DNA of 64,000 nucleotides, taken from Aureispira sp. CCB-QB1 (GTDB lineage Bacteria > Bacteroidota > Bacteroidia > Chitinophagales > Saprospiraceae). Location: assembly GCF_000724545.1 (NCBI RefSeq), contig NZ_JHBV01000016.1, positions 124,001 through 188,000 on the forward strand, in the 5' to 3' direction. Positions within the stretch are counted from its first letter, which is position 1. Each line of letters begins with the position of its first letter. The translations under genes and the position numbers were made by a program. Below are positions 5,563 to 59,855 of the stretch, piece after piece. The notes beneath the pieces are model-generated. The model was not told the origin of the DNA. It saw nothing but the letters and a program-made list of their open reading frames with translations, and made no database searches.

Positions 5563-5647
5563 TAGTTCGTTGACTAGCTTTGTTACTCCCTATGGTCGTG
5601 AGCTCGCATAGCTCGGTTCGCAGCTACTACGTGGTTTCAACGAACTA
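5563..5647. repeat. dispersed palindromic element, copy A (85 bp)
   Basis: Bounded by a perfect 11-bp inverted repeat, TAGTTCGTTGA (5563-5573) and TCAACGAACTA (5637-5647). The interior contains CTCCCTATGGTCGTGAGCTC and GCTACTACGTGG, which recur at other loci in this window (near 20.4, 42.9 and 55.1 kb). It is intergenic and has no ORF. Confidence 0.85.
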
Positions 5648-5668
5648 TTGAATTGATGACATCCGTTA

Positions 5669-5888
5669 AAAAATCAACGGAGTAATAAATTGAGATTATT
5701 TAAGAATAAGGTTATCTAGAATTAATACTCCGTTGATTTTTGAGTTTCCCTACGAACCCGCAGGCTCACGAAGTAAAAACGTAAAAAAGCATCTTGCATT
5801 AGTTTGATTATCAGTCTTTTAGCATAAAGGCTAACAAGGGCACATCTTACTGATAATCAAACTAATACGATTTTTCAACGGAGTAATG
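5669..5888. repeat. dispersed nested-palindrome element, copy 1
   Basis: It starts with a perfect 16-bp inverted repeat, AAAAATCAACGGAGTA (5669-5684) and TACTCCGTTGATTTTT (5726-5741). Next comes a second, 17-bp perfect palindrome, ATTAGTTTGATTATCAG (5798-5814) and CTGATAATCAAACTAAT (5850-5866). It ends with a third CAACGGAGTAAT. A closely related copy lies at 32403-32569. There is no coding capacity. Confidence 0.85.
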
Positions 5889-6051
5889 CTAGAATAGTAG
5901 TTATCAATAAACATCTTCATTATTTATCTCTTAGATGCAGACTTTGTAAAAACGCTGCATGATTTTTTATTTTTTTTAAGTCTGTGTACCAAACAAAAAT
6001 TTTAAAATTGCTACCATAAAAAGTTTAAATTAGTACCCAAAAGAAAATATT

Positions 6052-7185
6052 ATGATTCGTATATTCAGTTTTTTATTCCTTTTCAGCATTCTACTGGCTT
6101 GTAACCCAAGTTCAAAACTAAAAAATAAAGACATTGAAGATTTAGAGGATATTAATCTATTGCTTCAAAAAGTACGTTCAAAATACAATATGCCAGCCAT
6201 GGCAGCAGCAGTTGTTCGCAAAGATGCCATTCAAGCCATAGGTGTAACAGGCGTACGACGTATTTATACCAAAGATAAAGTAAAACTTAGCGACCGTTTT
6301 CATATGGGCTCTACGACCAAGGCAATTACAGCACATTGGGCAGCAAGCTTGGTAGAAAGCGGGTTCATTACTTGGGATAGCAAGATTTTAGACATATTTC
6401 CACATTGGGAAGACGATGCATTAAAAACATACCACAACGTTACTCTATCTGATTTACTTTGCCATAGAGGCAAAATTCAGCCGTTTACAAGTGCAATGGA
6501 CTTGGCTAGTTTGCCTCGATTTGCGGGCAACCCCATGGAAAAACGTCGTGCTTTTGCCAAATGGTTGCTCAAGCAAAACCCAGCAAAAGTTGGTAGTCAA
6601 GAAGGTTACGTTTATTCCAATGCAGGATATTCTATTGCTGCTGCTATGCTCGAAAAAGTAAGTGAAACAACTTGGGAGGAAGCTATTTTAAGCGATGTAC
6701 TGGTTCCTTTAGATATCGATGCGGTTATTGGTTGGCCTACAGATAGCGACGCCAATCAACCTTTTGGGCATCATTCTGTCCATCCTTTAGATTCTAACCT
6801 TCGAGCTGTGACGGCTAGAAATATGTTTCAAATGGAAGACATTATTGCTCCCTCTGGTGACTTGAGTATGTCTATTGAGGATTACGCCAAATTTGTTCAA
6901 GCACATTTACAAGGTGTACAAGGGCAAGATAACTTGTTAAAAGCTGATACGTATAACTATGTGCATTATGGTCGGGAGAACTATGCTATGGGCTGGACTA
7001 GGCTGCTAAAAAATGGCACACACGTTAGCACACACGACGGTAGTGCTGGTACCTTTTATTCTCATACGAGCATTTTGAAAGAAAAAGACTTGGGCATTAT
7101 TATTTTTGTTAATGCTTCCAATATTTACGCTACAAAAGCCGTTTATACTTTAAAAAAACGTTTGCTAGATATTTATGACAAATAA
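6052..7185 (+). CDS. serine hydrolase lipoprotein, beta-lactamase class C/penicillin-binding protein family
   Basis: 377 residues. The lipoprotein signal ends in SILLAC (Cys17). The family motifs are visible: SxxK as STTK at 87-90 (nucleophile Ser87, Lys90), YxN as YSN at 188-190, and a C-terminal HDGSAGTF in place of the KTG/HTG strand. Members are D-Ala-D-Ala carboxypeptidases, esterases or beta-lactamases acting in the periplasm or at the cell surface. Sequence alone does not choose between them, and nothing here argues for true antibiotic resistance. It is monocistronic, with a 270-base gap downstream. Confidence 0.9.
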   Translation: MIRIFSFLFLFSILLACNPSSKLKNKDIEDLEDINLLLQKVRSKYNMPAMAAAVVRKDAIQAIGVTGVRRIYTKDKVKLSDRFHMGSTTKAITAHWAASLVESGFITWDSKILDIFPHWEDDALKTYHNVTLSDLLCHRGKIQPFTSAMDLASLPRFAGNPMEKRRAFAKWLLKQNPAKVGSQEGYVYSNAGYSIAAAMLEKVSETTWEEAILSDVLVPLDIDAVIGWPTDSDANQPFGHHSVHPLDSNLRAVTARNMFQMEDIIAPSGDLSMSIEDYAKFVQAHLQGVQGQDNLLKADTYNYVHYGRENYAMGWTRLLKNGTHVSTHDGSAGTFYSHTSILKEKDLGIIIFVNASNIYATKAVYTLKKRLLDIYDK

Positions 7186-7457
7186 TAATTTCTTTGGCAT
7201 AAAAATTATAGCTATATTAATCATATAAAGGCTATCCCCCAATATAGAATAAATGACAAAGTATTCATTTGGGCTTAGATACAATCCAATTTAAGTCCTT
7301 TTCTATATTTGATTATCTCGTCCTGTTTTTTAAACCCCAAATTTAAATTACATTATTGATCTACTTTTTAATCTATGTAGTATGCCATATACTAGAACTT
7401 ATCTAATTAAAGGAGTTCTTATTCCCAATAAAGGTGCTACATTCAAAATGGCTGGTT

Positions 7458-8477
7458 ATGAAACAAGTTCAACACCTATTTTTTGTTGTCCTTCTTACTG
7501 TTTTTGCAATGACAATGACAAAAGCACAAGATACTCCATTGCCCAACATTAGCTCTCAATATCTAACTCAAGGGAATGATTATGGTGCTGTAGTATTAAA
7601 AATCCAATATGCCAACCCAAAAAGTCATTGGGTTTTGGATGGAAAAACACTCGATTTTACACAACAAAATTTATATCAATTCTTGGATACTCGGTTTGAA
7701 AATTTAGAAGCAGCAGAGATTCAACAACATAATATAAAATTGGAAGCGCCCTCTGATATGCCCATTCACTACTTACAAGATGCTTATGCGTGGGTTCAAA
7801 TTTATGGAAATAAAAGTTTACACCTAGCCATGTATGAAAGCATGCAACCCGATAAAAAACAATACCTTCCGTTAGATATCCTGCCCTTTACTCAACTAGA
7901 AGAAGCCTGCACTTATTACGCTACATCTACGAGAGGTTCCAATTCGGCAGTTGAAGCTTTCTCAACCATCCACCCCAATACCGAACGCTTAACAATGTCT
8001 AAAAAGATAGATTTAAGTTTAGCATCTAAAAAAATTCGTCCTGAACATTATATCCCTCAAAACATTCTACATATTGACCTTCGAGAAGGTAATGAAATAA
8101 TTTTTAAAGGTCGTCAAGCCAATCCTTTGGTTTTGGGTTCTCTTATTCAAAGTGAGTTGGCTGCTAATTATAAGAATAGTTACGAAAAAGCAGCTCCGCA
8201 AAACTACTTGTGGATCAACCTCCGTATGAACAAAAATATTACCTATCAGCAGTATGCTGAAGTATTGGTTGCTCTGCAAGAAGCGTTTCATTTATATTGG
8301 GAAGAATTGGCATTTAACAAATTTCAAAAAGCCTACTTAGATTTAGATGTGCAACAACGCTGGTCTATTCAACAGGCTAGCCCTAAATTAATTGCTCAAT
8401 ATGATGCCATTGAATTATTGTACATAGAAGAAAAGTTATCTTCGGATACTCCTCAAACATGGTTTGAATTAAAATAA
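7458..8477 (+). CDS. exported protein with a C-terminal ExbD/TolR-like periplasmic domain
   Basis: The likely start is the ATG at 7458 (MKQVQHLFF...), which puts a Sec signal peptide ending TMTKAQ at the N-terminus; an upstream in-frame ATG at 7434 would bury it. About 339 residues. The middle has no recognised domain. From ~residue 205, ILHIDLREGNEIIF, then LWINLRMNKNITYQQYAEVL and an ELAFNKFQKAYLDLDVQQRW segment closely follow the periplasmic domain of Bacteroidota ExbD proteins (the pattern NxxTxYxxYxxVLxxLxxAYxxxWEExAxxxFxxxxxxL). The ExbD transmembrane anchor with its Asp is absent. The fold is inferred and the function unknown. Confidence 0.7.
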   Translation: MKQVQHLFFVVLLTVFAMTMTKAQDTPLPNISSQYLTQGNDYGAVVLKIQYANPKSHWVLDGKTLDFTQQNLYQFLDTRFENLEAAEIQQHNIKLEAPSDMPIHYLQDAYAWVQIYGNKSLHLAMYESMQPDKKQYLPLDILPFTQLEEACTYYATSTRGSNSAVEAFSTIHPNTERLTMSKKIDLSLASKKIRPEHYIPQNILHIDLREGNEIIFKGRQANPLVLGSLIQSELAANYKNSYEKAAPQNYLWINLRMNKNITYQQYAEVLVALQEAFHLYWEELAFNKFQKAYLDLDVQQRWSIQQASPKLIAQYDAIELLYIEEKLSSDTPQTWFELK

Positions 8478-8528
8478 AACACCTTATATGCTAAAGTTTT
8501 TTTGATTTATAAAAATTCACGAAAGACC

Positions 8529-14500: not shown

Positions 14501-14505
14501 TAAAA

Positions 14506-15583: not shown

Positions 15584-16090
15584 ATTTTATATTTTTTTGT
15601 TTTTTGATTGATACAATCAACTTATAAAATTGCATTACTACGTTGTTGAAAGATTGATTGACAGGCTATTCCTTGAATATTTAGTCAAAATTTAAGCTCC
15701 TCAAGGGCTTTCAACTCGTTTGCGCTGCAAAGATAAGATATGTAGTTTATTCTACACTACGATTGATCATTTTTATTGATGATTTGTATCTTTTTTACAT
15801 TATTATTATTAAGAATAGGTTCATAGATTCTAGCATTTACAAAATACTAAAAACCTAAATCCAGCAACCTTTTTATTCTATTTTACAAGTACAAACTTCT
15901 ATAATATAACTTCTTTTTTTAGATGCATTTTTTAGGGTATTTCCCCTAATAGAAGTTGATCAAATATTTCTATAGCCATCAGTTGCCCCATCCTTGAATC
16001 ACGTGTCGTATAATCATTACTCTGTTGAAACTACGCAGTAGCAGCGCAGCTAACTACTAATAATATAACTTGCAAAAAAAATGGAACCTT
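15584..16090. other. intergenic region upstream of the desaturase gene
   Basis: About 500 AT-rich bases. CAAAGATA at 15728-15735 reads TATCTTTG on the minus strand, a possible -7 box for the desaturase, but no good -33 partner is seen. A minus-oriented fragment of the dispersed repeat lies at 16019-16060. Nothing else is recognisable. Confidence 0.5.
16019..16060 (-). repeat. dispersed intergenic repeat, fragment D (reverse orientation)
   Basis: On the minus strand this reads AGTAGTTAGCTGCGCTGCTA followed by CTGCGTAGTTTCAACAGAG, the same module order as the copy at 55063-55168. Only this arm is present here. Confidence 0.7.
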
Positions 16091-19117: not shown

Positions 19118-19495
19118 TTATTTTTTAATAGTTAGCGGCACTGCTACTAGGTGGTTCTTAAAAAACTTTGTCAACTCGAATTAATAGTTCATTCGTTAGC
19201 AACATTCAATTTAAGAATACTTTATCGCTTTTTCACCTCTATATCTAAAAAAACAAGAATACACGCATAACAAACTTATTATCAAATAAAATTAAACCTA
19301 CCCAAATCATAAAATCTACTCTATGGATAGTTAACGTTGCCCCCCTCTCGAGTCAAACAATGCATTTTTTTAGAGAAGTAGAGGATGTTGAATCAAATGG
19401 CAAAACACCAACTGCATTCAATTTATTTATTCCTAAGCATAAGAATCAACAACTATTCTTTGTACTTTTACACCTCACTATAACAACAATATCAA
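19118..19495. other. intergenic region with a decayed repeat fragment
   Basis: About 380 bases between divergent genes. The stretch 19130-19195 (TTAGCGGCACTGCTACTAGG, then AATAGTTCATTCG) looks like a degenerate piece of the dispersed repeat. The rest is AT-rich, with no clear promoter pair or hairpin. Confidence 0.4.
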
Positions 19496-20230: not shown

Positions 20231-20269
20231 TAAGTAACATCTAAGTAATCGTTCAAAAAAATAACAAGT

Positions 20270-20293
20270 ACCACGCAGTAGCAGCGTAGCTAA
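20270..20293 (-). repeat. dispersed intergenic repeat, fragment F1
   Basis: The minus strand reads TTAGCTACGCTGCTACTGCG followed by TGGT, the conserved core of the dispersed element. It lies 40 bases after the DUF4261-like gene. Confidence 0.7.
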
Positions 20294-20400
20294 AACAGCC
20301 TTCTTTTTGCGCTACACTTCATCAGAAAAACTTGTCTTAGCTCGCTAAGCCTTCCTTTTTCTTCTTGGATTAGCAAAAAATAATCCCATTTTTTGTTCTT

Positions 20401-20422
20401 ATTTTTTCTGACCTCTTACTTA
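20401..20422. repeat. 22-bp exact repeat, copy 1
   Basis: Identical to 30720-30741 (core TTTTCTGACCTCTTACTTA). Both copies are intergenic; this one directly precedes composite repeat F2. Confidence 0.7.
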
Positions 20423-20429
20423 TTTATAG

Positions 20430-20672
20430 TAGTTCGTTGATTACCTGCGGTGCTACTTCGTGGTAGCTCCCTGCGGTCGTGAGATCGCTATCGCTTAGTT
20501 GTTTACTTTTTTACCAAAAAGATAAAAAACCACACTTATATTAGCTTGATAATCAAAGCTTTAATGCAAAATGCAATAAAAATCATAACTTATTAATTAT
20601 CAACTGCGCAGCACTCACGAAGTAAACTAATAAAGTTTAGCTGCGCTGCTACTCCGTGGTTTCAACAAACTA
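20430..20672. repeat. dispersed palindromic element, composite copy F2 (243 bp)
   Basis: Ends are TAGTTCGTTGA (20430-20440) and TCAACAAACTA (20662-20672), an inverted repeat with one mismatch. The interior contains CTCCCTGCGGTCGTGAG, a TTAGTTGTTTACTTTTTT module followed by ACCAAAAAGA (shared with 49350-49380), the ATTAGCTTGATAATCAA palindrome arm, and GCTGCGCTGCTACTCCGTGG. It abuts the stop codon of the DUF2459-like gene. Confidence 0.85.
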
Positions 20673-20675
20673 TTG

Positions 20676-30107: not shown

Positions 30108-30707
30108 CTACTGTTCCATCATCAAAAGTTTTATTTCTTTTTCTCCCCCTCTCATATATTCCCCTCCTGTATTGATATAATATAGTTTCTTTCCTTCCAA
30201 AAAGAAGGCATAAGGCTCATAACTTACTAAAACCCAAATCTTTTTATTTTGACTCAATTCTTTTATGAACTTAAAAGCCTTTTTTGCATTAGTGGTGTTT
30301 GTAAAAATATATTCAGCAATTTTTGCTCTATAGCGATATTTGACAGGAAGTTCACTTTTAACAAAAACTTCTCTAGCTTCAGAGATATTATCGACAATCT
30401 CCAATAAGGAGTCTTTGTCTATTTTATTAGACAGGTGTAATTTTTCCAATCTACTAAATAAACGTGTTTTGAATACATTAAGACTATCAAGTGATTTTAT
30501 GCGGTATCGTTTTTTTGATTGGTATAACTTCTCGGCTTTTTCTTTTAACTTAGATTCCTCTTTTTTTACGTTATTGCTATTGTCTAATGTATCCAATTGA
30601 ACACGTTCACGAACCGTTGGTTGATTTTTGCTTTCAGATTTTTCACTTTCTATAGAACAAGAAAAAATTAGTATAGAAAAGAAGGCATAGTATAATATAG
30701 GTTTCAT
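30108..30707 (-). CDS. lipoprotein of unknown function
   Basis: 199 residues. The lipoprotein signal ends in LIFSC (Cys17) with SIESEKSESK after it. The mature protein is Lys/Glu/Ser-rich and largely helical (a long charged stretch at ~40-110), with a beta-rich end (IWVLVSYEPYAFFLEGKKLY). No motif is recognised. It is convergent with the membrane protein gene, 25 bases away. Confidence 0.7.
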   Translation of the reverse strand: MKPILYYAFFSILIFSCSIESEKSESKNQPTVRERVQLDTLDNSNNVKKEESKLKEKAEKLYQSKKRYRIKSLDSLNVFKTRLFSRLEKLHLSNKIDKDSLLEIVDNISEAREVFVKSELPVKYRYRAKIAEYIFTNTTNAKKAFKFIKELSQNKKIWVLVSYEPYAFFLEGKKLYYINTGGEYMRGGEKEIKLLMMEQ

Positions 30708-30719
30708 GTTTTACTTGTT

Positions 30720-30741
30720 ATTTTTTCTGACCTCTTACTTA
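30720..30741. repeat. 22-bp exact repeat, copy 2
   Basis: Identical to 20401-20422. It lies just upstream of the lipoprotein gene start and before the terminator of the SKYDAD-repeat gene. Confidence 0.7.
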
Positions 30742-30762
30742 CAACTATTAAGAAAATAAAAA

Positions 30763-30824
30763 ATCGCTTCGAATTTAGGCCTATTAAACTCTTAGCCAAT
30801 AGTACTGCCCAAAATCGAAGCGAT
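30763..30824 (-). terminator. probable terminator of the SKYDAD-repeat gene
   Basis: A 10-bp inverted repeat, ATCGCTTCGA (30763-30772) and TCGAAGCGAT (30815-30824), with a long 42-base loop. Read on the minus strand it is followed by a T run, 20 bases past the stop codon. Confidence 0.6.
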
Positions 30825-30843
30825 GTAATAATTGTATTATTTT

Positions 30844-31185
30844 TTAGTGCATGATATGCTTCTTACCACTTTCACGCCAGCCTGCATCGTATTTTGAACT
30901 TGCGTAATAGATTTTCAGGTCAGCATCGTATTTTGAATCTACAAAATAGATTTTTTTGTCTGCATCATACTTTGAATCGACAAAAAACCATCGACCTGCT
31001 TTGTCGGTATCATATTTAGAATCTACTTTGTAAACGACTAAATCTGCATCGTATTTTGAATCTACAACATATACCTTTACATCGGCATCGTACTTGCTAC
31101 TTGCTTCCCAAACTTTTTGGGCATTACTTTGTGTCGACATTGTCATAAAAATAACAAAGGCACATAAGAAGAATAATTGCTTCAT
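30844..31185 (-). CDS. small secreted SKYDAD-repeat protein (DUF6150-like)
   Basis: 113 residues. The signal peptide MKQLFFLCAFVIFMTMSTQSNAQ is followed by six copies of a ~13-residue repeat with the core SKYDAD (variants SKYDTD, SKYDAG) and an intervening V-Y-x-V strand pattern. The basic C-terminus is WRESGKKHIMH. The repeat register is strict except for one four-residue insertion (KAGRW). The pattern resembles DUF6150, whose function is unknown. The regular Tyr/Asp spacing suggests a repetitive beta-solenoid or beta-arch, which is inference. Confidence 0.82.
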   Translation of the reverse strand: MKQLFFLCAFVIFMTMSTQSNAQKVWEASSKYDADVKVYVVDSKYDADLVVYKVDSKYDTDKAGRWFFVDSKYDADKKIYFVDSKYDADLKIYYASSKYDAGWRESGKKHIMH

Positions 31186-32360: not shown

Positions 32361-32402
32361 GCTAACATTACTTCGTTGAAACCATGCAGTAGCAACAAAG
32401 TT
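32361..32402 (-). repeat. dispersed intergenic repeat, fragment C (reverse orientation)
   Basis: On the minus strand this contains TTGCTACTGCATGGTTTCAA followed by CGAAGTAATG, the GCTACTGCGTGGTTTCAACG module. It directly precedes the nested-palindrome copy 2, the same side-by-side order as at 5563-5888. Confidence 0.7.
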
Positions 32403-32569
32403 AATCAATGGAGTATTAAACTAATAATACTCCGTTGATTTTTTAGTTTTCTTACGAAAAACGTAAAAAAGCATCTTGCATTAGTTTGATTATCAATCTT
32501 TTAGCACAAAAGCCAACAAAGATACATCTTGCTGATAATCAAACTAATACGATTTTTCAACGGAGTAAT
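32403..32569. repeat. dispersed nested-palindrome element, copy 2
   Basis: AATCAATGGAGTATTA (32403-32418) and TAATACTCCGTTGATT (32425-32440) form one arm pair. ATTAGTTTGATTATCA (32480-32495) and TGATAATCAAACTAAT (32533-32548) form the second. It ends TTTTTCAACGGAGTAAT. From 32428 it matches 5726-5888 almost base for base, with one ~20-base deletion. Confidence 0.85.
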
Positions 32570-32650
32570 GAAACTAACAAATGTGTGCTATTAAAAACAG
32601 CTCTAGGCGCAATAATTATAATATTAAATCATAAAAAATAAAAGAATCAG

Positions 32651-32917
32651 ATGTTCTGGACAGCAATTGCAATAATGGTTATTGGAGGGTATTATTTCGA
32701 CCTTCAAAAACAAAAACTAAAACAAGAAAAACGTGGTGGTGCCAATTCTAAAGAAGTCAAACTCCAATTAGGTCGTTTGATGGCAGAAAATGAAGAAATG
32801 AAGGAGCGCATACGAAATTTGGAATACCTAATGACAGATCGAAAAGATTATATTGATATAGATTACGAGAAAGAGCAAATGAGATTGGACAACAATAACA
32901 ATAAGTTTGAATACTAA
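32651..32917 (+). CDS. PspB-like small membrane coiled-coil protein, array member 1
   Basis: 88 residues. A single N-terminal helix (~2-17) is followed by a basic stretch and a coiled coil with LMAENEEMKERIRNLEYLMT at ~47-66, then the shared tail DYEKEQMRLD. This is the architecture of phage-shock protein PspB (one TM, then a short charged coiled coil ending in RxLExIL), but the identity is low and the tail motif is extra. It is the first of six consecutive paralogue-like genes, 55 bases before the second. The protein is predicted to sit in the inner membrane with the coil in the cytoplasm. Confidence 0.75.
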   Translation: MFWTAIAIMVIGGYYFDLQKQKLKQEKRGGANSKEVKLQLGRLMAENEEMKERIRNLEYLMTDRKDYIDIDYEKEQMRLDNNNNKFEY

Positions 32918-32972
32918 ACCACCGAACCTTATTTAATTACTTCATCTCTTTTCACTAAAACAACAACCAACT

Positions 32973-33284
32973 ATGGACGAGTTTTTTCTGTTTATGCTTA
33001 CCGTGATAGGTGTCCCTATGGGATTTTATTTCCTTGGAGCTTACCTAAAAATCAAGCTTCAAAGCTTGCGACAAAAACACAACTTAATAGAACCCAATGC
33101 CAATACTAAAAATATGCAACAACAAATGGAGTACTTAATGCATGAAAATGAAGAAATAAAAGAGGAGCTCCACAACATTAAGTATTTACTAAGTCGACAG
33201 GACAAACGAGAACGCATTGATTTAGATTATGAAAAAGAGCAAATGAGATTGGATTATGATGCCAAAGGTTCTTTATCCCTTTAA
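32973..33284 (+). CDS. PspB-like small membrane coiled-coil protein, array member 2
   Basis: 103 residues. The TM helix is at ~3-25. The coil contains YLMHENEEIKEELHNIKYLL, and the tail IDLDYEKEQMRLD is almost identical to members 1 and 3. A basic KIKLQSLRQKH segment follows the TM, consistent with a cytoplasmic coil. The last eight residues (AKGSLSL) differ from the NKFxx ending of its neighbours. Confidence 0.75.
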   Translation: MDEFFLFMLTVIGVPMGFYFLGAYLKIKLQSLRQKHNLIEPNANTKNMQQQMEYLMHENEEIKEELHNIKYLLSRQDKRERIDLDYEKEQMRLDYDAKGSLSL

Positions 33285-33330
33285 ATCTTATTATCTTAAT
33301 TGTATTTCTTAATCTTTGCAAATTTATATT

Positions 33331-33624
33331 ATGGAAATTCTTGTTCCCATTATTGCCATTATCATGATCTTTTCTATTCCACTGGTTGCCTTATCCAATG
33401 CCCATAAATTAAAACTTGAAAAGCTAAAGGCAACCCAAAATGGTGGCAATGAAGCGGTTTCTGATTTGCGCAAACAAGTTGGTCATTTGATGGCTGAAAA
33501 TGACGAAATCAAAGAACGGCTTAAAAATCTAGAATATTTATTGACCAATGACTCCAAGCGCATTGACTTAGATTATGAAAAAGAACAAATCCGAATTGAT
33601 CAACAGAATAAATTTAATTCATAA
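33331..33624 (+). CDS. PspB-like small membrane coiled-coil protein, array member 3
   Basis: 97 residues from the ATG at 33331; an in-frame TTG at 33316 was not used. The TM helix is at ~4-24. A basic linker precedes the coil HLMAENDEIKERLKNLEYLL, and the tail is IDLDYEKEQIRIDQQNKFNS. The stop codon overlaps the next start by one base (TAATG), indicating coupled translation with member 4. Confidence 0.75.
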   Translation: MEILVPIIAIIMIFSIPLVALSNAHKLKLEKLKATQNGGNEAVSDLRKQVGHLMAENDEIKERLKNLEYLLTNDSKRIDLDYEKEQIRIDQQNKFNS

Positions 33625-33941
33625 TGGAAGTCATAATTGAACTTGCAATTGTTTTTGGTTTTGGGGCTGTTTTTGTAACTTTATTTTTCTTTCTGTTTCA
33701 GATCTTGCGACTAAAACTAAAAAAACTAAAGCGAGAATTTGCAGAAGAAAAGGAGTTGAGTCAAGTTGATGTTCTAAAAAAAGATATTGGCTATTTGATG
33801 GCTGAAAATGAGGAAATGAAAGAGGAATTGCGAAACATCAAATATTTACTTAGTGGAGAAATCAGCAAACAGGCTATTGACTTAAAAGCGTACGAGAAGC
33901 AACAAATTGAAATTGATAAAAGAAATAAATTTGAATTATAA
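33624..33941 (+). CDS. PspB-like small membrane coiled-coil protein, array member 4
   Basis: 105 residues. A longer, Phe-rich TM helix (~8-30) is followed by the basic RLKLKKLKRE. The coil has YLMAENEEMKEELRNIKYLL and the tail IDLKAYEKQQIEIDKRNKFEL, with one extra residue before YEK, as in member 5. The gap to the next gene is two bases. Confidence 0.75.
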   Translation: MEVIIELAIVFGFGAVFVTLFFFLFQILRLKLKKLKREFAEEKELSQVDVLKKDIGYLMAENEEMKEELRNIKYLLSGEISKQAIDLKAYEKQQIEIDKRNKFEL

Positions 33942-33943
33942 TT

Positions 33944-34237
33944 ATGCTAGCAGAAATAGCCCTCTTTATTTGTGTTTCAACAGTTATTTTAGTTTTTATC
34001 TTAACTCGTTTTTACCTCAAATTACAAGAGTTAAAATACAAACATAATTCTCATTCTAATCAAAGCGCCTCAGAAATAAAGCAACAACTGGGACACGTAA
34101 TGGCCGAAAATGAGGAAATGAAAGAAGAGTTATCCAATATCAAATACCTATTAAGTCAAGACAAACGATTTATTGATATTGAAGCTTACGAAAAAGAACA
34201 AATCCGAATTGATCAAGAAAATAAAATGAACTCGTAA
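33944..34237 (+). CDS. PspB-like small membrane coiled-coil protein, array member 5
   Basis: 97 residues. The TM helix is at ~5-23. The coil has HVMAENEEMKEELSNIKYLL, and the tail is IDIEAYEKEQIRIDQENKMNS. It is closest to member 4 in the tail (DxxAYEK) and to member 3 in the final IRIDQ. A 90-base gap separates it from member 6. Confidence 0.75.
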   Translation: MLAEIALFICVSTVILVFILTRFYLKLQELKYKHNSHSNQSASEIKQQLGHVMAENEEMKEELSNIKYLLSQDKRFIDIEAYEKEQIRIDQENKMNS

Positions 34238-42513: not shown

Positions 42514-43064
42514 AAGATTGTTTTGTTGTTGTTGAGTGGAGATGATTACATCTTAAACATGTCTATTTAAGTACTTGCCCCTATTGAACCAATAGAATTA
42601 ACGATTAATATAGGTAGAGACTCTTTATACCTACGCCATCTAGTCAAAACAATCTATTAAATTATCATCACTATTCTATCAAATAATTCAATTTAATCAA
42701 AAAATTAAAATTTTATTCTAAAAAAATGAACAATACTGTTTTTTTAGTGTTAAAATAGTAGTTGGTCTTCTAAGCGATACCTTCTCAATAATTTCTATCT
42801 AAATTATTGTCTCTCTCTACTAGAACTTCCTTTCTTCAGTTGACGGTATCCCTTGCTGGTAATCTAAATTTTGCTTATCCCACTAAACATCATTGATGAA
42901 CTATACCAAACATCAATACTACGTTGATTTGCTTTGTTACTCCCTATGGTACGATTGCGTGACTTCAACGAACTATTGACGAAATATAGTTCAAGCATTT
43001 TATTCAATTTGTCTTTTATCAATGATAAGATGACTGACACATTCTTTAATTAAAAAACATAATT
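42514..43064. other. intergenic region with repeat G
   Basis: About 550 bases between divergent genes. The first 400 are AT-rich without recognised features. A dispersed-repeat copy occupies 42917-42978. Confidence 0.5.
42917..42978 (+). repeat. dispersed intergenic repeat, copy G
   Basis: TACTACGTTGA, then GCTTTGTTACTCCCTATGG (shared exactly with copy A), then GTGACTTCAACGAACTATTG. It is a shortened copy of element A with a damaged left end. Confidence 0.8.
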
Positions 43065-44361: not shown

Positions 44362-44415
44362 AGAATAAGCCGTATGTTGCACAATGATACATTCTTTATT
44401 CCTATTTTATCAATT

Positions 44416-44500
44416 AGTATTAGCTACGCTCGTGCGATCACAAAATTATTCATATTAGCTTGATAATTAATAAAATTCAGCTACACTACTATTCATTGCA
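44416..44500. repeat. dispersed intergenic repeat, fragment H
   Basis: TAGTATTAGCTACGCTCGTG, then ATATTAGCTTGATAATTAA (shared with F2), then CAGCTACACTACTATTCATT. It is degenerate but keeps the module order. Confidence 0.6.
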
Positions 44501-44506
44501 CTATTT

Positions 44507-49307: not shown

Positions 49308-49398
49308 TAGTAGTTAATAGTAGTTAGCTACGCTCATGAGGGCGCAAGCTTAGTTTTTTACTTTTTCACCAAAAAGACAAAAAAGCAACGAACTATTG
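49308..49398 (+). repeat. dispersed intergenic repeat, copy I
   Basis: Begins TAGTAGTTAATAGTAGTTAG, then CTACGCTCATGAGGGCGCAA, a TTAGTTTTTTACTTTTTCAC module and CCAAAAAGACAAAAAAG (shared with F2), and ends CAACGAACTATTG. It lies immediately upstream of thiL. Confidence 0.75.
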
Positions 49399-51058: not shown

Positions 51059-52240
51059 ATGACAAAGCTCTCTTCTGAAGAAATTTCAAAAATTCCTGAT
51101 TTATTGCTTAGTTTGGATGATAATAACCAAAATATTGCACTTCAACTATTAGAATTACATCCTTATGCCATTCCTAAGCTGTTAATTCCTATCGAAGTTT
51201 TCCTCGCCTTTTATCCTGAATCCCAACTTATCAACCTTGTACAACAAGTACTTCCCAGCTTTCAATTAGAAAAATCGCCTATTTATCTACTTCATTTGAT
51301 TCTAAATAATGGCGATTACACTCATACGGATAAGAATCTATTCAAACGATTTGCCATTAACGAACTTAATTATAGACCATGGCTGCTTAAAACACCCGCT
51401 AGAGCAGCTGTCTATGCAGAAGTTGGTACTATTTTTTGTCAACATAGCGATTTATTTGAAAAAGGACTACACTATTACGAATTGGCGATTAACAACGGTG
51501 CCAAAACTAGCCATATTATGCTCTGTTATTTAGCTTCCTTACAAGAAAAATATACTGCTAACTCAACATTAGAAATACACAAAACACAAATTATTACTCA
51601 TTATAATCAAATTTATCAGGAACAGCCGCATCAAGATATTCTTTACAATTTAGCCTCTTTTTATCAACACGATTTGAATGATAAATTAGCTGCAATAGAA
51701 ACATGGAAACGCTGCATTCAGCTTTACCCTAAGTTTAATCGTGCTATTTTTGCATTGGCTCATTTTCTGTTTGAAGAAAACAAATGGGAAGAAGCCAAAA
51801 ATTTCGCTTTGAAGAGTTTACACCTTACCCTATCTGGTGTTTATTATAATTTAGATGAAACATATTATCTATTAGGAGCTATTGAATGGAAAGGCTTTCA
51901 GAACTTGCCAGCAGCAGAGACTTACTTTGAAAAAGCATTGGAAGAAAATGAATTTTACTACCAACCTCTACAAGCACTGATGGAATTATCCTTAGAAAAT
52001 GAGGAGTATACGAAAGCCGTTCGATGGCACAAACTTGCCTTACAAGAAAGCCCTTTTGATATTCCATTAATGCTACAAATAGCTGAATTATACCTTGAAG
52101 TTTATGATTTGGAACAAGCAAGACTGTACTATTCTGAAATATTGGAACTCAATGCTGCTTATCCGCCCGCTTTAGAAGGTTTGAAAAAAATAGCTAAGTA
52201 CAGGACAAAAAATGGAGAAATTGAAAAATTAGTAAATTAG
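51059..52240 (+). pseudogene. TPR protein gene whose 3' end was replaced by an IS insertion
   Basis: The start was chosen at the ATG at 51059 (MTKLSSEEISKIPDLLL), 393 codons to the present stop. Tetratricopeptide repeats from ~100 to 370 (ILYNLASFYQHDLNDKLAAI, then AIFALAHFLFEENKWEEAKN and further units). The reading frame enters the insertion sequence at 52194, so the last 15 residues (from the Ala of KKIAKYRTKNG) are IS-encoded. Joining the flanks across the 9-bp duplication gives GLKKIEQL and a stop at 53369-53371, so only about three native residues were lost. The protein is probably still functional; 'pseudogene' here means altered end. Partner unknown. Confidence 0.8.
52185..52193. repeat. 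9-bp target-site duplication, left copy
   Basis: AAAAAATAG directly before the left end of the insertion sequence. The same nine bases occur at 53352-53360. Confidence 0.9.
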
Positions 52241-53351
52241 TAGTTGCGAAATCACTATTTACAAACTTCAATAACTCCGAATGAAAGATACAGAAAAAGT
52301 TCTTAAAGATATATTATCTGATCATTTTGCTGGTCAAAGTCAGCGATTGACCATGTTGAGTAAGCTGGTTATTTCCATAATAAAAATGAGCAGCATTAGC
52401 TATGCTCAACTTTCGCTGGTATTGAACCCTTTTGCAAAACGAGAATCTAATTTCAAAAGGATTCAACGTTTCATGAAAGAATACAAATTCTGTCGTAAGT
52501 GCTATATTCAATTAGTTTGGAAACTCATTGTTTTTAGTAATCAGTGGGTAGCTCTGAGCATTGATAGAACCAATTGGAAATTTGGGAAAATCAACATCAA
52601 TATTTTACTAATAGGTATTAGCTATAATGGAACAGCAATACCACTTATTTGGACTCTATTAGACAAAAGAGGTAACTCTTCTCAACAGGAACGGATAGAT
52701 TTAATGCAAAGCTTGATGAGTCATTTAACAATAAAGCAAAAAGGGCAAATCAAATATTTGTTAGCAGACCGTGAGTTTATTGGTAATCAATGGATAAGCT
52801 ATTTAAAATCTTTGCCTTTAATTTTTATTATTAGAATCCGAAGTAACAGTTTGATGCGAAAGTTTGGACAAATAAAAGAAGTAAAAGTTGGCAAATACTT
52901 TAGCCAATCAACTTTTAAAGCTTTGAGAAAACAAAGAATACTTTTCAAGCACCAACTTTATATTGGAGGTCAGAAACTAGGTAAATCTGAATGGCTTATT
53001 TTGATAAGTAACAAACCTATTTCAAAAGGTAAAAGAATTTATCAAGAACGCTGGGGAATCGAAGTTTTTTTCTCAGCTTGTAAAACAAGAGGATTTAATT
53101 TTGAGGATACTCATGTAACAGCACCATCTAGATTATCCAGTCTACTATTTCTTGTTGCAATAGCCTTTGTTTGGTCTTATAAAACAGGAGAATGGTTAAT
53201 CAAAAGAGGGGGTAAAATTCCAATAAAAAAACTAAAAACTCGAAAAGCTAAACTCTTTAGTATTTTTAGATTTGGCTTAGATTATATCAAAGAACGTTTA
53301 CTTAACTTTTTAACTTTATTTCAGGAATTAAAACTTTTGTCCTGTACTTAG
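52194..53351 (+). mobile_element. complete IS4-family insertion sequence (1158 bp)
   Basis: Terminal inverted repeats are perfect over 17 bases: CTAAGTACAGGACAAAA (52194-52210) and TTTTGTCCTGTACTTAG (53335-53351). A 9-bp target duplication (AAAAAATAG) flanks it at 52185-52193 and 53352-53360. The single transposase gene ends in the last three bases of the right repeat. Intact ends, intact target duplication and an uninterrupted transposase frame indicate a recent, probably still active insertion into the TPR gene. The specific IS name cannot be given without a database search. Confidence 0.95.
52281..53351 (+). CDS. IS4-family DDE transposase
   Basis: 356 residues, full length. The catalytic triad is Asp95 (LSIDRTNW), Asp163 (LLADREFIG) and Glu261. 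The YREK signature of the family is exact: Tyr254, Arg257, Glu261, Lys268 (YQERWGIEVFFSACK). The N-terminal ~75 residues form a basic DNA-binding part (NFKRIQRFMKEYKFCRKC). It cuts and joins the IS ends. The stop codon TAG is the last triplet of the right inverted repeat. Confidence 0.95.
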   Translation: MKDTEKVLKDILSDHFAGQSQRLTMLSKLVISIIKMSSISYAQLSLVLNPFAKRESNFKRIQRFMKEYKFCRKCYIQLVWKLIVFSNQWVALSIDRTNWKFGKININILLIGISYNGTAIPLIWTLLDKRGNSSQQERIDLMQSLMSHLTIKQKGQIKYLLADREFIGNQWISYLKSLPLIFIIRIRSNSLMRKFGQIKEVKVGKYFSQSTFKALRKQRILFKHQLYIGGQKLGKSEWLILISNKPISKGKRIYQERWGIEVFFSACKTRGFNFEDTHVTAPSRLSSLLFLVAIAFVWSYKTGEWLIKRGGKIPIKKLKTRKAKLFSIFRFGLDYIKERLLNFLTLFQELKLLSCT

Positions 53352-55048: not shown

Positions 55049-55062
55049 GTATTACTATTAAT

Positions 55063-55168
55063 TTAGTAGTTAGCTACGCTGCTACTTCGTGGTCGTTAAT
55101 TAGCTCCCTACGGTCGTGAACTCGCATAACTCGGTTCGCTGCTACTGCGTGGTTTCAACGAACTATTG
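55063..55168 (+). repeat. dispersed intergenic repeat, copy J (106 bp)
   Basis: Reads TAGTAGTTAGCTACGCTGCT, ACTTCGTGG, then CTCCCTACGGTCGTGAACTC, GCATAACTCGGTTCGCTGCT, ACTGCGTGGTTTCAACGAAC and TATTG. The interior matches copy A with few changes, and the left arm is the reverse-complement partner of D and F1. It is the best-preserved long copy. Confidence 0.85.
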
Positions 55169-55244: not shown

Positions 55245-57395
55245 CTATTTCAAGACTACTTTTTGCATCATTCTTGTTCCTCCGCCTGCCACCTGTATGT
55301 AGTAAACCCCTGATGTCAAATCAGAAAGGTTTAATTTATAATTTCCACCAATCACATTTTCATCTCGTAGCTGCCCTACTTCTTGTCCTAAAGCATTGTA
55401 CACCGTAATAACAAGAGCTGCTTGTTTGGGCAACTGGATATCAACATTTAATTGACCTGTTGTTGGATTGGGATATATATTTAGGTTGCCTTTAGTTTGG
55501 TTTAAGGTTGTTACGTTTAGTCCAGGCGTATTCGTAATGTTAATATCATCTACGTACAAATTATTTTCATAATCGCAAACATGCTCAAATTGAATTTGAA
55601 CATTAGAGGCATTCTTATAAACCGACAAATCAATGGTTTCCTTCCTCCAATCTCCAGTCGTTGGAACAAATTCCGAGGCTTGCAGATTGGCAACAGTTGC
55701 TAAAGCAGTGCCTGCTTTTTCATAGATTTTCGTCCAAGTCTGCCCACAGTCATCAGAAGCCCAAAGACGCAAAGTATCACTAAAACCAGAGGCAGAATAC
55801 AAGGCATAGGCTAATTCAAACGTCATGGTTACCGTAGATGAATTGCTCATATTAAGAGCAGGCAGTGAAATCCAATCTTTTTCACCATTGGCAGGATAAT
55901 CCCAATTATCCATGAACATAGAAGCACCTCCTGTTTTTGATGCTACTGTTGTTCGTGCCCAAGTAACATCATTGTCAGGGTTAGATGCACTCCAACCTAC
56001 AGCAGGAAAAGTAGCTCCTTCAAAACCTTCTGAAAACGGTAAGGCTAGTCCTCCAACAGAGACCGTAAAAGGCGTTGAGCTTTGGTCGTTATTCGAGTCT
56101 CCATCTGCATTGCCATTGGGCAAGGAAGTCCAAACGGTTATCATATGAGCACCATTTGTTACTGTTTGTTGTGGCAACTGAACCAAAGCCGTTTGTGTTG
56201 TTGGCAAATTTCCTGTCCAGTTTTGAGTCATCACCATGCCCCCATCAATTTGGTAGTTAATTACAGCAGAAGTCAAGGGAGATGCTCCATAATTTTTAAT
56301 GGTCACCTCTGGTACAAAAGAATTCGTACACATTGCTCCACTAGGATGGTTAATGGCAGAAATTCCAGCATCATGGCTAGCAATAACACAAGCTTGTGAT
56401 GTCAATAAGCCAGGTCGAGCAACAGCAATAGCAGCTCTCATCCTAGTTTTTTGTCCAGCAGTAAACGAATTCATACAATTGTCATTCACATAATCCATAA
56501 AGTTCATAAACATATCAGCAGATCCACAAGACGTAGCAGGGTGTGTGGGGCAACCACTGTATGCTTGATCTTGCAAAGGAGTATCGGTCACTCCATCATC
56601 TTGATTGCAGCCTCCATTTCCTGGTCCCCAAACATGTTGCAAATTCAACCAATGTCCTACTTCATGAGTAGTTGTTCGACCTCCATTGTAAGGTGCTGTT
56701 GCTCCTGTTTTACCAAAATATTGATATCCAATAACAACTCCATCGGCACCATTAGGTGCACTTCCGGGCGTGTACGTGAATCCCAAAACTCCACCGCCAA
56801 GTTCGCAAACCCATATATTTAAGTATTTATTGGGGTCCCATATATCGATCCCTCCTGCCGCTGTGGAGTAATAAGCACTACCATTGCCAATATTATTAAC
56901 AGACGTTTGAGTTCGTGTAATCCCTGTTGTTGCATTATTGTTAGGATCTTTGGTCGCTAGACAAAACTCAATCTCTGTATCGGCGACAACCCCAGCAAAG
57001 GTAGTAGGAACATTACTTGCATCGGCGTTTGTTCTTCTATAATCTTCATTCAAAACCTGCAATTGTTCATAAACTCGTTGGTCTGAAATATTCTGTGCCG
57101 CTGTTCGGTATACGATGTGTACCACAACAGGAATAGTATAAACAGGTGGTGCATTTCTCCCTTTAAATGCAAGCTTTTCTTGCTCTATGTAGCGATTGAT
57201 TCTTGCTTCTGTCACAGCCTTTCGTTTTCTAAGAACAGCATTTTTTTGAATAGCTTCTGCTACTTTTTCATTGGTAAAACAACGAGTAACTTTCTTAGAC
57301 TCTGCTGCCAAAGTAGCAACAACATCGTTTGGCTGCCCCCACAATGAGAACGTCTGTAGGAATAGAATGCAAATAACTGGGAATAACTTTTCCAT
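55245..57395 (-). CDS. T9SS-secreted M43 pappalysin-like metalloprotease
   Basis: 716 residues. Signal peptide MEKLFPVICILFLQTFSLWG. The catalytic domain has VVVHIVYRT, then the extended zinc motif HEVGHWLNLQH (His244, Glu245, His248, His254) and the Met-turn NFMDYVNDNCMNSFT. CARDB-like (~345-440) and MAM/cleaved-adhesin-like (~450-640, FSEGFEGATFPAVGW) domains follow. The last ~75 residues are a T9SS sorting domain (LNIYPNPTTGQLNV ... GVYYIQVAGG). Secreted or surface-attached protease. The Gly normally found after HExxHxx is Asn here, as in many Bacteroidota members. Confidence 0.93.
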   Translation of the reverse strand: MEKLFPVICILFLQTFSLWGQPNDVVATLAAESKKVTRCFTNEKVAEAIQKNAVLRKRKAVTEARINRYIEQEKLAFKGRNAPPVYTIPVVVHIVYRTAAQNISDQRVYEQLQVLNEDYRRTNADASNVPTTFAGVVADTEIEFCLATKDPNNNATTGITRTQTSVNNIGNGSAYYSTAAGGIDIWDPNKYLNIWVCELGGGVLGFTYTPGSAPNGADGVVIGYQYFGKTGATAPYNGGRTTTHEVGHWLNLQHVWGPGNGGCNQDDGVTDTPLQDQAYSGCPTHPATSCGSADMFMNFMDYVNDNCMNSFTAGQKTRMRAAIAVARPGLLTSQACVIASHDAGISAINHPSGAMCTNSFVPEVTIKNYGASPLTSAVINYQIDGGMVMTQNWTGNLPTTQTALVQLPQQTVTNGAHMITVWTSLPNGNADGDSNNDQSSTPFTVSVGGLALPFSEGFEGATFPAVGWSASNPDNDVTWARTTVASKTGGASMFMDNWDYPANGEKDWISLPALNMSNSSTVTMTFELAYALYSASGFSDTLRLWASDDCGQTWTKIYEKAGTALATVANLQASEFVPTTGDWRKETIDLSVYKNASNVQIQFEHVCDYENNLYVDDINITNTPGLNVTTLNQTKGNLNIYPNPTTGQLNVDIQLPKQAALVITVYNALGQEVGQLRDENVIGGNYKLNLSDLTSGVYYIQVAGGGTRMMQKVVLK

Positions 57396-57542
57396 AAAAT
57401 GCTCTGTTTAACAGTCGATAAGTAATTAATAAATGGCGGTCTATATATGGTTATTTTTTACAAAATAAGCTTTTTCATTCCAATAGCCTTTCTTTATCAA
57501 GCATTTTTTAACTTTAATACATTCTAAAAAGCTATTTTTTGT

Positions 57543-57580
57543 TCAAAAAAAAAGGTTGCTACCAATTGGCAACAACCTTT
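57543..57580 (-). terminator. intrinsic terminator of sucC
   Basis: On the minus strand AAAGGTTGTTGCC pairs with GGTAGCAACCTTT (two wobbles) around AATT and runs into nine T. It starts 25 bases after the sucC stop. Confidence 0.9.
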
Positions 57581-57604
57581 AATTTTTATTTTATTAGATT
57601 CTTT

Positions 57605-58816
57605 TTAACCTACCAATTCAGTTACTTTATCAGCAGCCTCTTGTAGAGTTACAGCAGAATGTACATCCAGCCCAGAATCGTCGATTAATTGCTTAGCGAT
57701 TTCTGCATTAGTTCCTTGTAAACGTACAATGATTGGAACATTGATATCACCAATATTTTGGTAAGCATCAACAACACCTTGTGCCACACGGTCACAACGA
57801 ACAATTCCACCAAAAATATTAATCAAAATTGCCTTTACATTTTCGTCTTTCAAAATGATACGGAAAGCAGTTTCAACACGCTTGGCATCAGCAGTACCTC
57901 CTACATCTAGGAAGTTAGCAGGCTCGCCACCACATAATTTGATAATATCCATCGTAGACATTGCCAAACCAGCACCATTTACCATACAACCTACGTTTCC
58001 ATCCAACTTAATAAAGCTTAAGCCATGTTCTTTAGCTTCTACCTCAGCAGGATCTTCTTCGTGTACATCACGTAGAGCCGCCAAGTCTGGATGACGGAAC
58101 AATGCATTTTCATCTAGAGAAGCCTTAGAGTCAGCAGCAACAATTTTGTTATCTGAAGTTTTCAAACAAGGATTGATTTCTACCAAAGAAGCATCAGCTC
58201 CTACAAAAGCTTTATATGTTGCCGCAACAAATTTTGTCATTGCTTTGAATGCATCTCCTTCAAGACCTAAATTGCTTGCAATATTACGTGTTTGGTACGC
58301 TTGCAAACCTAAATGAGGGTGAATATATTCTTTATGTACCAAATGTGGCGTTTCTTCTGCTACTTTCTCGATATCCATACCACCTTCCGTAGAATATACG
58401 ATTACATTACATTTACGCTCTCTGTCCATCAAGATAGAATAGTAAAATTCGTTCACATCCATGTTACCATCCGCATCTGGATAATAAACATCCTCTGTAA
58501 TTAGAATCTTGCGAACCAATTTACCCTCACCATCCATTCCACCAGGAGTTTGAGGTGTTTTTAACATCATACCTAAGATATTACCAGCATGTGTTTTTAA
58601 TTCGTCCATGTTTTTGGCCAACTTAACTCCACCGCCTTTTCCGCGTCCTCCAGCGTGGATTTGCGCTTTAACAACACACCAACTAGTGCCTGTTTCTTCT
58701 TTTAATTTAGCAAATGCAGTTTCGATATCGTCTAGATTTTCAACGACAACACCGCGTTGGATAGGCACGCCATAACTAGCTAATAGTTCTTTGGCTTGAT
58801 ATTCATGCAGATTCAT
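57605..58816 (-). CDS. sucC: succinyl-CoA synthetase beta subunit (ADP-forming)
   Basis: 403 residues, slightly above the usual ~390. Starts MNLHEYQAKELLASYGVPIQ; ATP-grasp domain with VVKAQIHAGGRGKGGGVKLA, Mg/nucleotide-binding ALVEINPCL-like segment (DASLVEINPCLKT), and the CoA-ligase domain with FLDVGGTADAKRVETAFRII and INIFGGIVRCDRVAQGV. Catalyses succinyl-CoA + ADP + Pi to succinate + ATP in the TCA cycle together with SucD. No sucD is adjacent, so the two subunits are encoded apart. A well-formed promoter and terminator flank it. Confidence 0.96.
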   Translation of the reverse strand: MNLHEYQAKELLASYGVPIQRGVVVENLDDIETAFAKLKEETGTSWCVVKAQIHAGGRGKGGGVKLAKNMDELKTHAGNILGMMLKTPQTPGGMDGEGKLVRKILITEDVYYPDADGNMDVNEFYYSILMDRERKCNVIVYSTEGGMDIEKVAEETPHLVHKEYIHPHLGLQAYQTRNIASNLGLEGDAFKAMTKFVAATYKAFVGADASLVEINPCLKTSDNKIVAADSKASLDENALFRHPDLAALRDVHEEDPAEVEAKEHGLSFIKLDGNVGCMVNGAGLAMSTMDIIKLCGGEPANFLDVGGTADAKRVETAFRIILKDENVKAILINIFGGIVRCDRVAQGVVDAYQNIGDINVPIIVRLQGTNAEIAKQLIDDSGLDVHSAVTLQEAADKVTELVG

Positions 58817-58858
58817 TGTGTAATGATTGAATGTTATTATAATAATGTTTCAATTGCT

Positions 58859-58890
58859 CAAATCTAAAAGTTTTTCTAAGCTTATTCAAA
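58859..58890 (-). promoter_or_regulatory. Bacteroidota sigma-A type promoter of sucC
   Basis: On the minus strand TTTG (58887-58890) is followed after exactly 20 bases by TAGATTTG (58859-58866), matching the TTTG-N19-21-TAnnTTTG consensus. The sucC ATG is 43 bases downstream. Confidence 0.7.
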
Positions 58891-59067
58891 TTAGTATAAA
58901 GGTTTTTCTAAGAATACTCTATTCATTTTTATTTTTTGGTCATTTATATCCACCTTTCTTTAATTTAAAGCTCTAGCAATCAAACTTCAATCTACTTTTG
59001 TTCCATCTTTTTCCTTTTGCATTCAACATTTCTACGATTTATGAATGTCATTGCATTGAATATAAAA

Positions 59068-59229
59068 AGCCAGCAGTACAAAATATATTTTCAGGATTAT
59101 ACTTGCTGCTGGCTATACGAATAGAATCATTTAAAAATGATTCTAACTAAATTTTAAAGGTCACTACGCTTCAAAATTTAGAAGCAAATTACACATCTTT
59201 AATTTTGGAGTTAAAAGCAAGTGCTTTTA
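59068..59229. ncRNA. candidate structured RNA: four consecutive stem-loops
   Basis: Stem 1 AGCCAGCAG/CTGCTGGCT (59068-59114), stem 2 AGAATCATTT/AAATGATTCT (59123-59144), stem 3 CTAAATTTT/AAAATTTAG (59147-59181) and stem 4 TAAAAGCA/TGCTTTTA (59212-59229), all perfect, in 162 bases of a 1-kb gene-free region. No known RNA family is recognised and strand is undetermined. Confidence 0.35.
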
Positions 59230-59602
59230 TTCCTCAATAATTGATCACTATCTATTCAGTAGTTCAAAGATAGCCTAGCTATTTTACTTTGGTCTTAACA
59301 AAAGATAACGCTGCTCTACTTTTTAGAGATTGTCAAGAAAAAAGCAATTTGTATGGAACGATTCCTTAATATCAGGCTCAAAATTTGGAGAAAAATAGGA
59401 ATAAAGCTAACTTTCATATTAGTCATTCGTAAAATGAATAGAAAGTCATTTACAAATTTTGTACAATACATTCTTTTACAAAAAACATCCTTTAATTAAT
59501 AGGCATAATTAAACAAATGCTCTAATAGTTGAAGATGCTCAACATGGTTTTAGCAGGCTATTGCCATTTTATCAAGCAAAAAAAATACTTTATTAAAAAA
59601 AG
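59230..59602. other. intergenic region between the stem-loop cluster and repeat K
   Basis: About 370 AT-rich bases with no gene, repeat module or hairpin that stands out. Confidence 0.4.
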
Positions 59603-59855
59603 TAATTCGTTGATTGTTTCATAAACAGCTCTGTGGTTTTATTAAAACAAGCCCATTCAGCTATCAATTTAGTTAGATGCAACTGTTGCTGTGTGGTATT
59701 TTAGAAGTGTTGCACAATTGATAATTCAAAGCTTAATATGAATCAAACAAAACTAACTTATTTACCAACGGCGCAGCACTCAAGTAGTAGCAACCTAACT
59801 AACCAAAAGCAAAGCGCTTACGAAGTAAACGAGTAAGATTCCTCAACGAACTATT
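59603..59855. repeat. dispersed palindromic element, copy K (253 bp, diverged)
   Basis: Left end TAATTCGTTGA and right end TCAACGAACTATT (59843-59855) form the family's terminal inverted repeat with one mismatch. The interior is diverged: it keeps TTGATAATTCAAAGCTTAAT, GGCGCAGCACTCAAGTAGTA and TTACGAAGTAAACGAGTAA, resembling parts of F2. It ends 30 bases before the rel start codon. Confidence 0.75.

Follow-up and report, generated by a model that had tools for sequence, protein, structure and literature searches.

The 64-kb window analysed here, a stretch of 64,000 nucleotides from Aureispira sp. CCB-QB1 (G000:C16:124001-188000, in a genome of 7.37 Mb and 184 contigs that we call G000), contains a set of palindromic intergenic repeats that an original prediction, made from the sequence alone, had placed at about eleven loci. 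The repeat family is real: the loci then listed carry the ends or modules ascribed to them, some in decayed form, and the family is larger than first described. Most of the copies in the window belong to two related families of miniature inverted-repeat transposable elements (MITEs), A and B, in which GC-rich units of 20-36 nt, the modules, occupy fixed scaffold sites in some copies and are missing from them in others, the borders being exact. We consider it likely that this is a two-layer system, in which A and B are moved by an insertion sequence (IS) and separate 20-36-nt modules enter and leave the scaffolds.

In total, 13 copies or traces are found in the window. The original list lacked two complete B-type copies (5723-5888 and 32425-32570), and the locus at 20270-20293, which does carry a module, sits in a different MITE, family C (20242-20422). 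The inverted-repeat ends are present as predicted, but the true ends lie 3 bp farther outward (TAGTAGTT.. and ..AACTATTG) because the target duplications border there. That the copies always lie between genes holds in the window, where 13/13 fall outside all 50 open reading frames (ORFs) of at least 100 aa. These 50 remain once six nested ORFs are removed from 56, and ~20% of the window lies outside them. Matches to TAGTTCGTTGA exceed chance, this sequence being found 10 times in the window (up to one mismatch) against 1.11 expected, with 0/100 shuffles reaching 10. The possibility, raised with the original prediction, that no further copies exist is removed by the 146 exact matches to CAACGAACTATTG genome-wide, versus 0 for the reversed control string. 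The copies, and the modules placed in them, are as follows:

5560..5650, + strand: A-type MITE of 91 bp, its middle replaced by modules; 7-bp duplication AATTGAT
5723..5888, + strand: B-type MITE of 166 bp, the 146-bp base plus a 20-nt module; 7-bp duplication CTAGAAT
16015..16059, - strand: 45-bp copy with an A-type left end, module a and a B-like right end; 5-bp duplication ATAAT
19130..19195, + strand: trace in decayed form, with AATAGTT ahead of module a (3 mismatches)
20242..20422, - strand: 181-bp MITE of family C, whose scaffold is unrelated; TA duplication inferred from further family members
20270..20291, - strand: module a, 22 nt, within the family C copy
20427..20675, + strand: A-type MITE of 249 bp; 7-bp duplication TTATTTA
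20443..20464, + strand: module f, ACCTGCGGTGCTACTTCGTGGT
20639..20660, + strand: module a at site 130
32366..32418, - strand: short B-type copy enclosing a unit like module a; imperfect duplication of 6 bp (AGCTAA/AACTAA, judged by eye)
32425..32570, + strand: B-type MITE consisting of the whole 146-bp base and no module; 7-bp duplication AAACTAA
42914..42978, + strand: copy of 65 bp in which both ends are present and a target duplication is lacking
44412..44504, + strand: decayed copy, limits by eye
49318..49398, + strand: A-type MITE of 81 bp with module-d sequence; 6-bp duplication AGTTAA
55064..55168, + strand: A-type MITE of 105 bp with module a at site 7 and a composite module; 6-bp duplication TTAATT
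55072..55093, + strand: module a, AGCTACGCTGCTACTTCGTGGT, splitting the terminal repeat as TAGTAGTT^CGTT
59600..59856, + strand: decayed A-type copy, no exact duplication

The 249-bp copy consists of the A base with modules f and c (site 14), b (site 116) and a (site 130). The copies at 42914-42978 and 59600-59856 have no target duplication, and those at 44416-44500 and 19130-19195, decayed in appearance, are absent from the paired ends analysed below.

Scaffolds A and B are related, each with a 146-bp base to which most longer paired copies align, and have the terminal inverted repeats TAGTAGTTCGTTGA/TCAACGAACTATTG and TAATACTCCGTTGA/TCAACGGAGTAATG; base A folds as a multi-hairpin (z -7.37). 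Both insert with target-site duplication. In the 1,237,344 bp of G000, window included, that were surveyed for MITEs and modules (1.24 Mb), 80 inward-facing end pairs, some copies being counted on both strands, had flanking duplications of 5, 6 and 7 bp in 10, 32 and 11 cases, against shuffled means of 0.6, 0.45 and 0.22 (maximum 3 at 6 bp). A wider scan of 1001 end pairs up to 5 kb found 59 with an exact duplication of at least 5 bp, 54 of which are at most 450 bp long, with duplications of 5 bp in 10 cases, of 6 bp (the mode) in 34 and of 7 bp in 10; a composite formed by two neighbouring copies, C43:68622-68875, is among the 54. The five longer pairs were set aside: in four of them each end carries 3 mismatches, and in the fifth, C43:2255-4499, this is true of one end, the pair terminating with the B copy C43:4354-4499. 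Empty and filled sites were compared with a second genome, G040, listed as the same species and ~99% identical to G000 over a 20-kb query. Clean empty sites of A were found at C30:146707 (151 bp, that is 146 + TGATT, filled in G000 only) and at C43:75647 (152 bp, filled in G040 only). The MITE-like character first proposed is thus borne out by the inverted ends, the duplications of 5-7 bp, the clean empty sites within the species and an IS with matching ends.

A transposase with such ends had been suggested as the thing to look for, and a complete IS at L254:1282-2646 (G000:C39) fits. It is 1365 bp long, is flanked by the 6-bp duplication TTATGC and contains a 429-aa ORF; its terminal bases are identical at 22/22 positions (CAATACTTCGTTGAAGTATTAA), and over its first 14 bases it has a single mismatch to the A right end. 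The encoded protein matches Pfam DDE_Tnp_1 (30.5 bits, cut-off 23) and is closest to the NCBIfam IS701 and IS4 models, the best, IS701_3, scoring 92.3 bits, below its cut-off of 170; among plasmids, 42 records matched it, every one at less than 60% identity. Because of the near-identical ends and the 6-bp duplication, this IS or a close relative is likely the mover of A and B, as far as sequence can tell. A search with PF01609 gave 3 matches in G000 and 42 in G040; other DDE IS groups (358, 370, 458, 427 and 468 aa) were rejected as movers on ends that mismatch by eye, and for the 294- and 269-aa groups no element boundary could be drawn. An A-type MITE with several modules lies at L254:1031-1254, 27 bp from the IS with matching ends. 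The window itself contains, at 52019-53350, an IS4-family transposase gene (ORF 52281-53351; NCBIfam IS4_2, 206.9 bits, cut-off 152), a region that aligns only in fragments to the G040 locus, as though the IS were absent there.

Aligned to the A and B bases, the longer copies are the base plus exact-size insertions at discrete sites: 22 nt at 7, 116, 130 and 138, 34 or 36 nt at 14, and 20 nt near 32, larger composite insertions also being found. The module patterns, written in one orientation, include a (AGCTNCGCTGCTACTNCGTGGT), f (ACCTNCGGTGCTACTNCGTGGT) and b (ACTTCGTGAGTGCTGCGCAGTT) and others; all eight begin with A and gave 0 matches in the reversed control. Patterns a and f overlap, and their 144 entries merge into 91 copies in the 1.24 Mb. 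TT precedes 79/91 of these (background 0.122), and they fall into 26 flank clusters, 12 of which have at least two members, some sharing one flank. TT also stands before 8/8 copies of module g and 8/9 of module d. No duplication is visible at the module borders, and the modules mostly follow directly after TT.

The modules are not confined to A and B. Family C (ends TAAGTAAG../..CGATTACTTA) makes TA duplications, with clean empty sites at C16:354550, C30:233375 and C43:170040, and has two sites at which modules occur. Each genome has two copies of 162 bp, all four with the same sequence, and G000 also has two of 184 bp that depart from it only by the addition of ACCTGCGGTGCTACTTCGTGGT; these six represent five loci, since two of the 162-bp copies are alleles by position. 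The G040 allele at C43:54949 is longer by exactly 22 nt than that of G000, which is empty. The 22-nt module a is shared by scaffolds with unrelated flanks, whose common ground is little beyond TT. A family-C-like stretch with module a at the same site also stands at a contig end of L227 (Saprospiraceae MAG-43).

Within the genus, module a (up to one mismatch) is found 267 times in G000, 266 in G040, 109 in G001, 92 in G006 and 46 in G003, and 0 times in four other species. Metagenome-assembled genomes (MAGs) of Aureispira contain module hits as well, and a match lies on an Aureispira plasmid. GTDB species genomes contain it in at least 74 stretches; among the matches listed, 35 are named Aureispira and the other 39 bear titles of groups that we take to belong to Bacteroidota. 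Chance matches to twenty fixed bases would number ~0.5 in 257 Gb on two strands. When the flanks were compared across these genomes (the 35 Aureispira loci included, matches at most 40 bases from a locus end dropped), they formed 45 distinct contexts, and TT preceded the module in 68/73 cases among the matches listed. At L240, a repeat (GATTT..CTC..GAAATGAC) exists in a form that contains the module and in one that lacks it. The distribution is patchy, since in an even sample of 395 genomes of the phylum the exact module was found in its own genome only (0/394 others); viral contigs contained none. A repeat of the form CCTTGA(T/C)TTTTTT..CTTTTT..TCAAGG..AAAAA hosts module a at L204, L217, L220, L231 and G000:C43:64050-64140, and in several Bacteroidota records its two arm pairs appear, by eye, to interleave in a pseudoknot-like manner.

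Exact presence and absence of modules is also observed at allelic sites of G000 and G040, which were compared over 393,649 + 684,220 aligned bp. Fourteen differences have the size of a single module (first three lines), and others are composite or rearranged:

22 nt: C30:34767, 98613, 181694, 230246 and 316009; C43:54949, 64099, 110135 and 284771
34-36 nt: C30:45296, C30:230361 and C43:284895
20 nt: C30:351322 and C43:64081
composite or rearranged: C16:57145, C16:306894, C30:105331 and C43:15716

In addition, the 45-bp copy at C16:39297 differs by 17 nt between the two genomes. The list may be incomplete because the scan of C30 and C43, filtered by motif and identity, missed C43:54949. The difference at C30:181694 is not claimed as an insertion outside a MITE, its flank resembling by eye a decayed B fragment.

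The original prediction held that the family assembles by recombination at shared modules, and shuffling among copies of one scaffold is indeed supported. In 45 of 51 elements on three contigs (six whose alignment covered less than 60% were dropped; one composite, omitted so that nothing is counted twice, and two C31 elements without counterpart sequence also lie outside the 45), substitutions between the two genomes amount to 174/6744 (2.58%), versus 108/26,108 (0.41%) in the 300-bp flanks, a density about six times higher inside the copies than beside them; the overall count is 5836/1,072,594. Single copies differ by 0-1 substitutions in 18/45 cases and by at least 5 in 16/45. For 58 of 84 substitutions in 24 A-like copies, both alleles occur elsewhere among the copies (38.3 expected if bases were random), and 6-13 substitutions, mostly within the copy, accompany the module changes at C43:110135 (a d-to-c module swap with clustered substitutions), C30:316009, C30:34767, C43:284771 and C30:98613. 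Conversion between copies thus probably acts and shuffles modules, as the roughly sixfold density indicates. It is not needed for every case: only 0-1 substitutions go with the changes at C43:15716, C30:181694 and C30:230246. Hypermutation of palindromes could be another source of the raised substitution count.

These same data, together with the clustering of modules at scaffolds, are what one would expect if the modules were not mobile units and instead had been handed down as parts of old scaffolds, with deletion removing them and only homologous recombination or gene conversion between MITE copies reshuffling them. We regard this explanation as possible but somewhat doubtful, since it must accommodate a 22-nt unit in scaffolds that share little beyond TT, both here and in other Bacteroidota, and identical 162-bp C scaffolds that occur with and without the module. 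Recombination, in other words, does not by itself explain the same module between unrelated flanks.

We favour a two-layer system. In the first layer, the strongly folding 146-bp A and B scaffolds insert with duplications of 5-7 bp, as the 54/1001 duplicated end pairs and the clean A empty sites show, and would be moved by an IS4/IS701-like DDE transposase, a proposal based on the ends and the duplication size of the L254 IS. In the second, palindromic scaffolds would gain or lose modules at exact borders, mostly after TT and without visible duplication, as suggested by the exact-size insertions, the 14 allelic differences, the family C copies with and without a module and the unrelated flanks after TT. 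Ectopic gene conversion between copies would then spread or remove a module within a scaffold family and may be its main means of spread. First arrival in an unrelated scaffold would be an insertion without flanking homology, perhaps by way of folded single-stranded RNA or lagging-strand DNA that is copied into, or ligated at, TT; no enzyme for this step was identified, reverse transcriptases not having been searched for. We give about even chances to the further claim that the modules are themselves mobile, inserting mostly after TT without target duplication, preferring palindromic repeats and still moving. This claim would include spread between unrelated scaffolds and distant Bacteroidota, and the within-species differences suggest such movement.

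Several observations weigh against the two-layer system. The TT rule is weaker for modules b (5/8), b2 (3/7), e (9/14) and c (5/7), and for 126 of the 144 a/f entries the nearest A, B or C end is no more than 200 bp away, versus 22.4% of random positions, a clustering that also suits spread by recombination only. The module differences between the two genomes are unpolarised, and each could be a precise loss. The site C43:64081 is not unique, other full copies of its context (C43:64050-64140) existing in both G000 and G040. The A-like polymorphic sites C43:30706 and C43:25568 are not clean, and the family C site C43:156325 is less clear than the others. The L254 IS is present once in G000 and its size class is absent among the 42 G040 matches, and A-type insertions differ between the two genomes despite the lack of such an IS-sized match in G040. 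Isolated modules fold no better than shuffles by folding energy, which leaves their description as stable hairpins unsupported. A test of modules in loops formed by their own flanks gave no significant result either (mean -11.08 versus -10.09 for mismatched flanks, the lowest of 30 mismatched sets being -11.40; -8.49 versus -8.95 in the other set).

The strong folding of the base scaffold could also mean that the modules function as signals in RNA or DNA (terminators, or sites for RNase or proteins) and are under selection, including on their gain and loss. Compensatory changes at two of seven stem pairs fit this explanation: among 82 unique module variants (sequences preceded by T, at most 4 mismatches), pair 2-8 shows 7 such changes versus 0.86 in shuffles (maximum 4) and pair 13-19 shows 7 versus 0.73 (maximum 4), the other five showing no excess, and relatedness of the copies can inflate the excess. 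Both N positions in the module fall in the loops of its two proposed mini-hairpins; the double hairpin is suggestive only. We find it unlikely that selected signals explain the modules, given that the window has no Rfam match at the gathering threshold, that modules alone fold no better than shuffles and that module presence differs within one species.

A relation to repetitive extragenic palindromic (REP) sequences, also entertained in the original prediction, is brought to mind by the short palindromic repeats treated in PMC3116915, PMC3733652 and PMC6006769; the last of these concerns Y1 enzymes with atypical REPs in Bacteroidetes. That the modules are REP- or REPIN-like units moved by a Y1 transposase (REP-associated tyrosine transposase, RAYT) is nevertheless very improbable: their short size, palindromic look, lack of visible duplication and the GTAG seen within the reverse complement of module a would suit it, but PF01797 has 0 matches (E <= 0.001) in G000, G040, G001 and G003, all of them module-rich, and one match each in G006 (many modules) and G004 (no module). 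A RAYT was rejected as the mover on the lack of a match in either same-species genome.

To our knowledge, how units of ~20 nt spread is unsettled for both the small dispersed repeats (SDRs) of cyanobacteria and the hairpin elements of mitochondria. Elhai et al. reportedly described the Nostoc SDRs in 2008 as ~20-nt units with precise insertion, nested in mini-transposons and showing compensatory changes. By description, these are nearest in kind to the modules, which share the unit size, the exact borders and the nesting in small transposable elements; the SDRs belong to another phylum, whereas here there is a candidate IS for the host scaffolds and there are module differences within one species. 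Cyanobacterial SDRs are also treated in PMC4390886.

Yeast mitochondrial GC42 clusters, according to PMC4478555, are GC-rich, vary more in loops than in stems, merge and shuffle, are polymorphic between strains and have AG as target. Sponge repetitive hairpin elements (RHE) and Allomyces double-hairpin elements (DHE) are tiny hairpin-forming units, those of Allomyces being reported without flanking duplications (PMC2800124). The modules resemble these elements in their tiny size, variability of the proposed loops, shuffling, within-species polymorphism (for GC42) and, for Allomyces, lack of duplications, but they are bacterial-chromosomal, are housed in IS-linked MITEs and mostly follow TT rather than the AG of GC42. 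With other bacterial IS-derived MITEs, A and B share the inverted ends, the target duplications, the intergenic position (in the window) and an IS with matching ends; the difference is that their length varies by exact internal modules. A search of titles and abstract beginnings in the open literature (open-licence papers, partial coverage) returned no description of this repeat family, which is weak evidence of absence.

The system links a MITE family to a specific candidate IS and offers a natural setting in which to test the movement of very small mobile DNA. Single modules whose borders are known distinguish two genomes of the same species, and scaffolds of identical sequence occur with and without a module, so that insertion, loss and conversion become separable in a bacterium by sequencing and simple assays. 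If the modules are indeed mobile, they would rank with the smallest mobile DNAs known so far and would reside within MITEs that a transposase drives.

Three further features of the window involve repeats of other kinds. At 3076-3183, two tandem 54-bp repeat units lie inside an ORF, and G040 is longer by 54 bp there. At 30204-31185, 463 bp are absent from G040, and a nearby ORF has repeats spaced 39 bp apart (30881-31095). Finally, five similar 85-bp segments, with 61-72% identity to the reference copy, occur in short ORFs at 32757-34161, at a spacing of ~300-360 bp.

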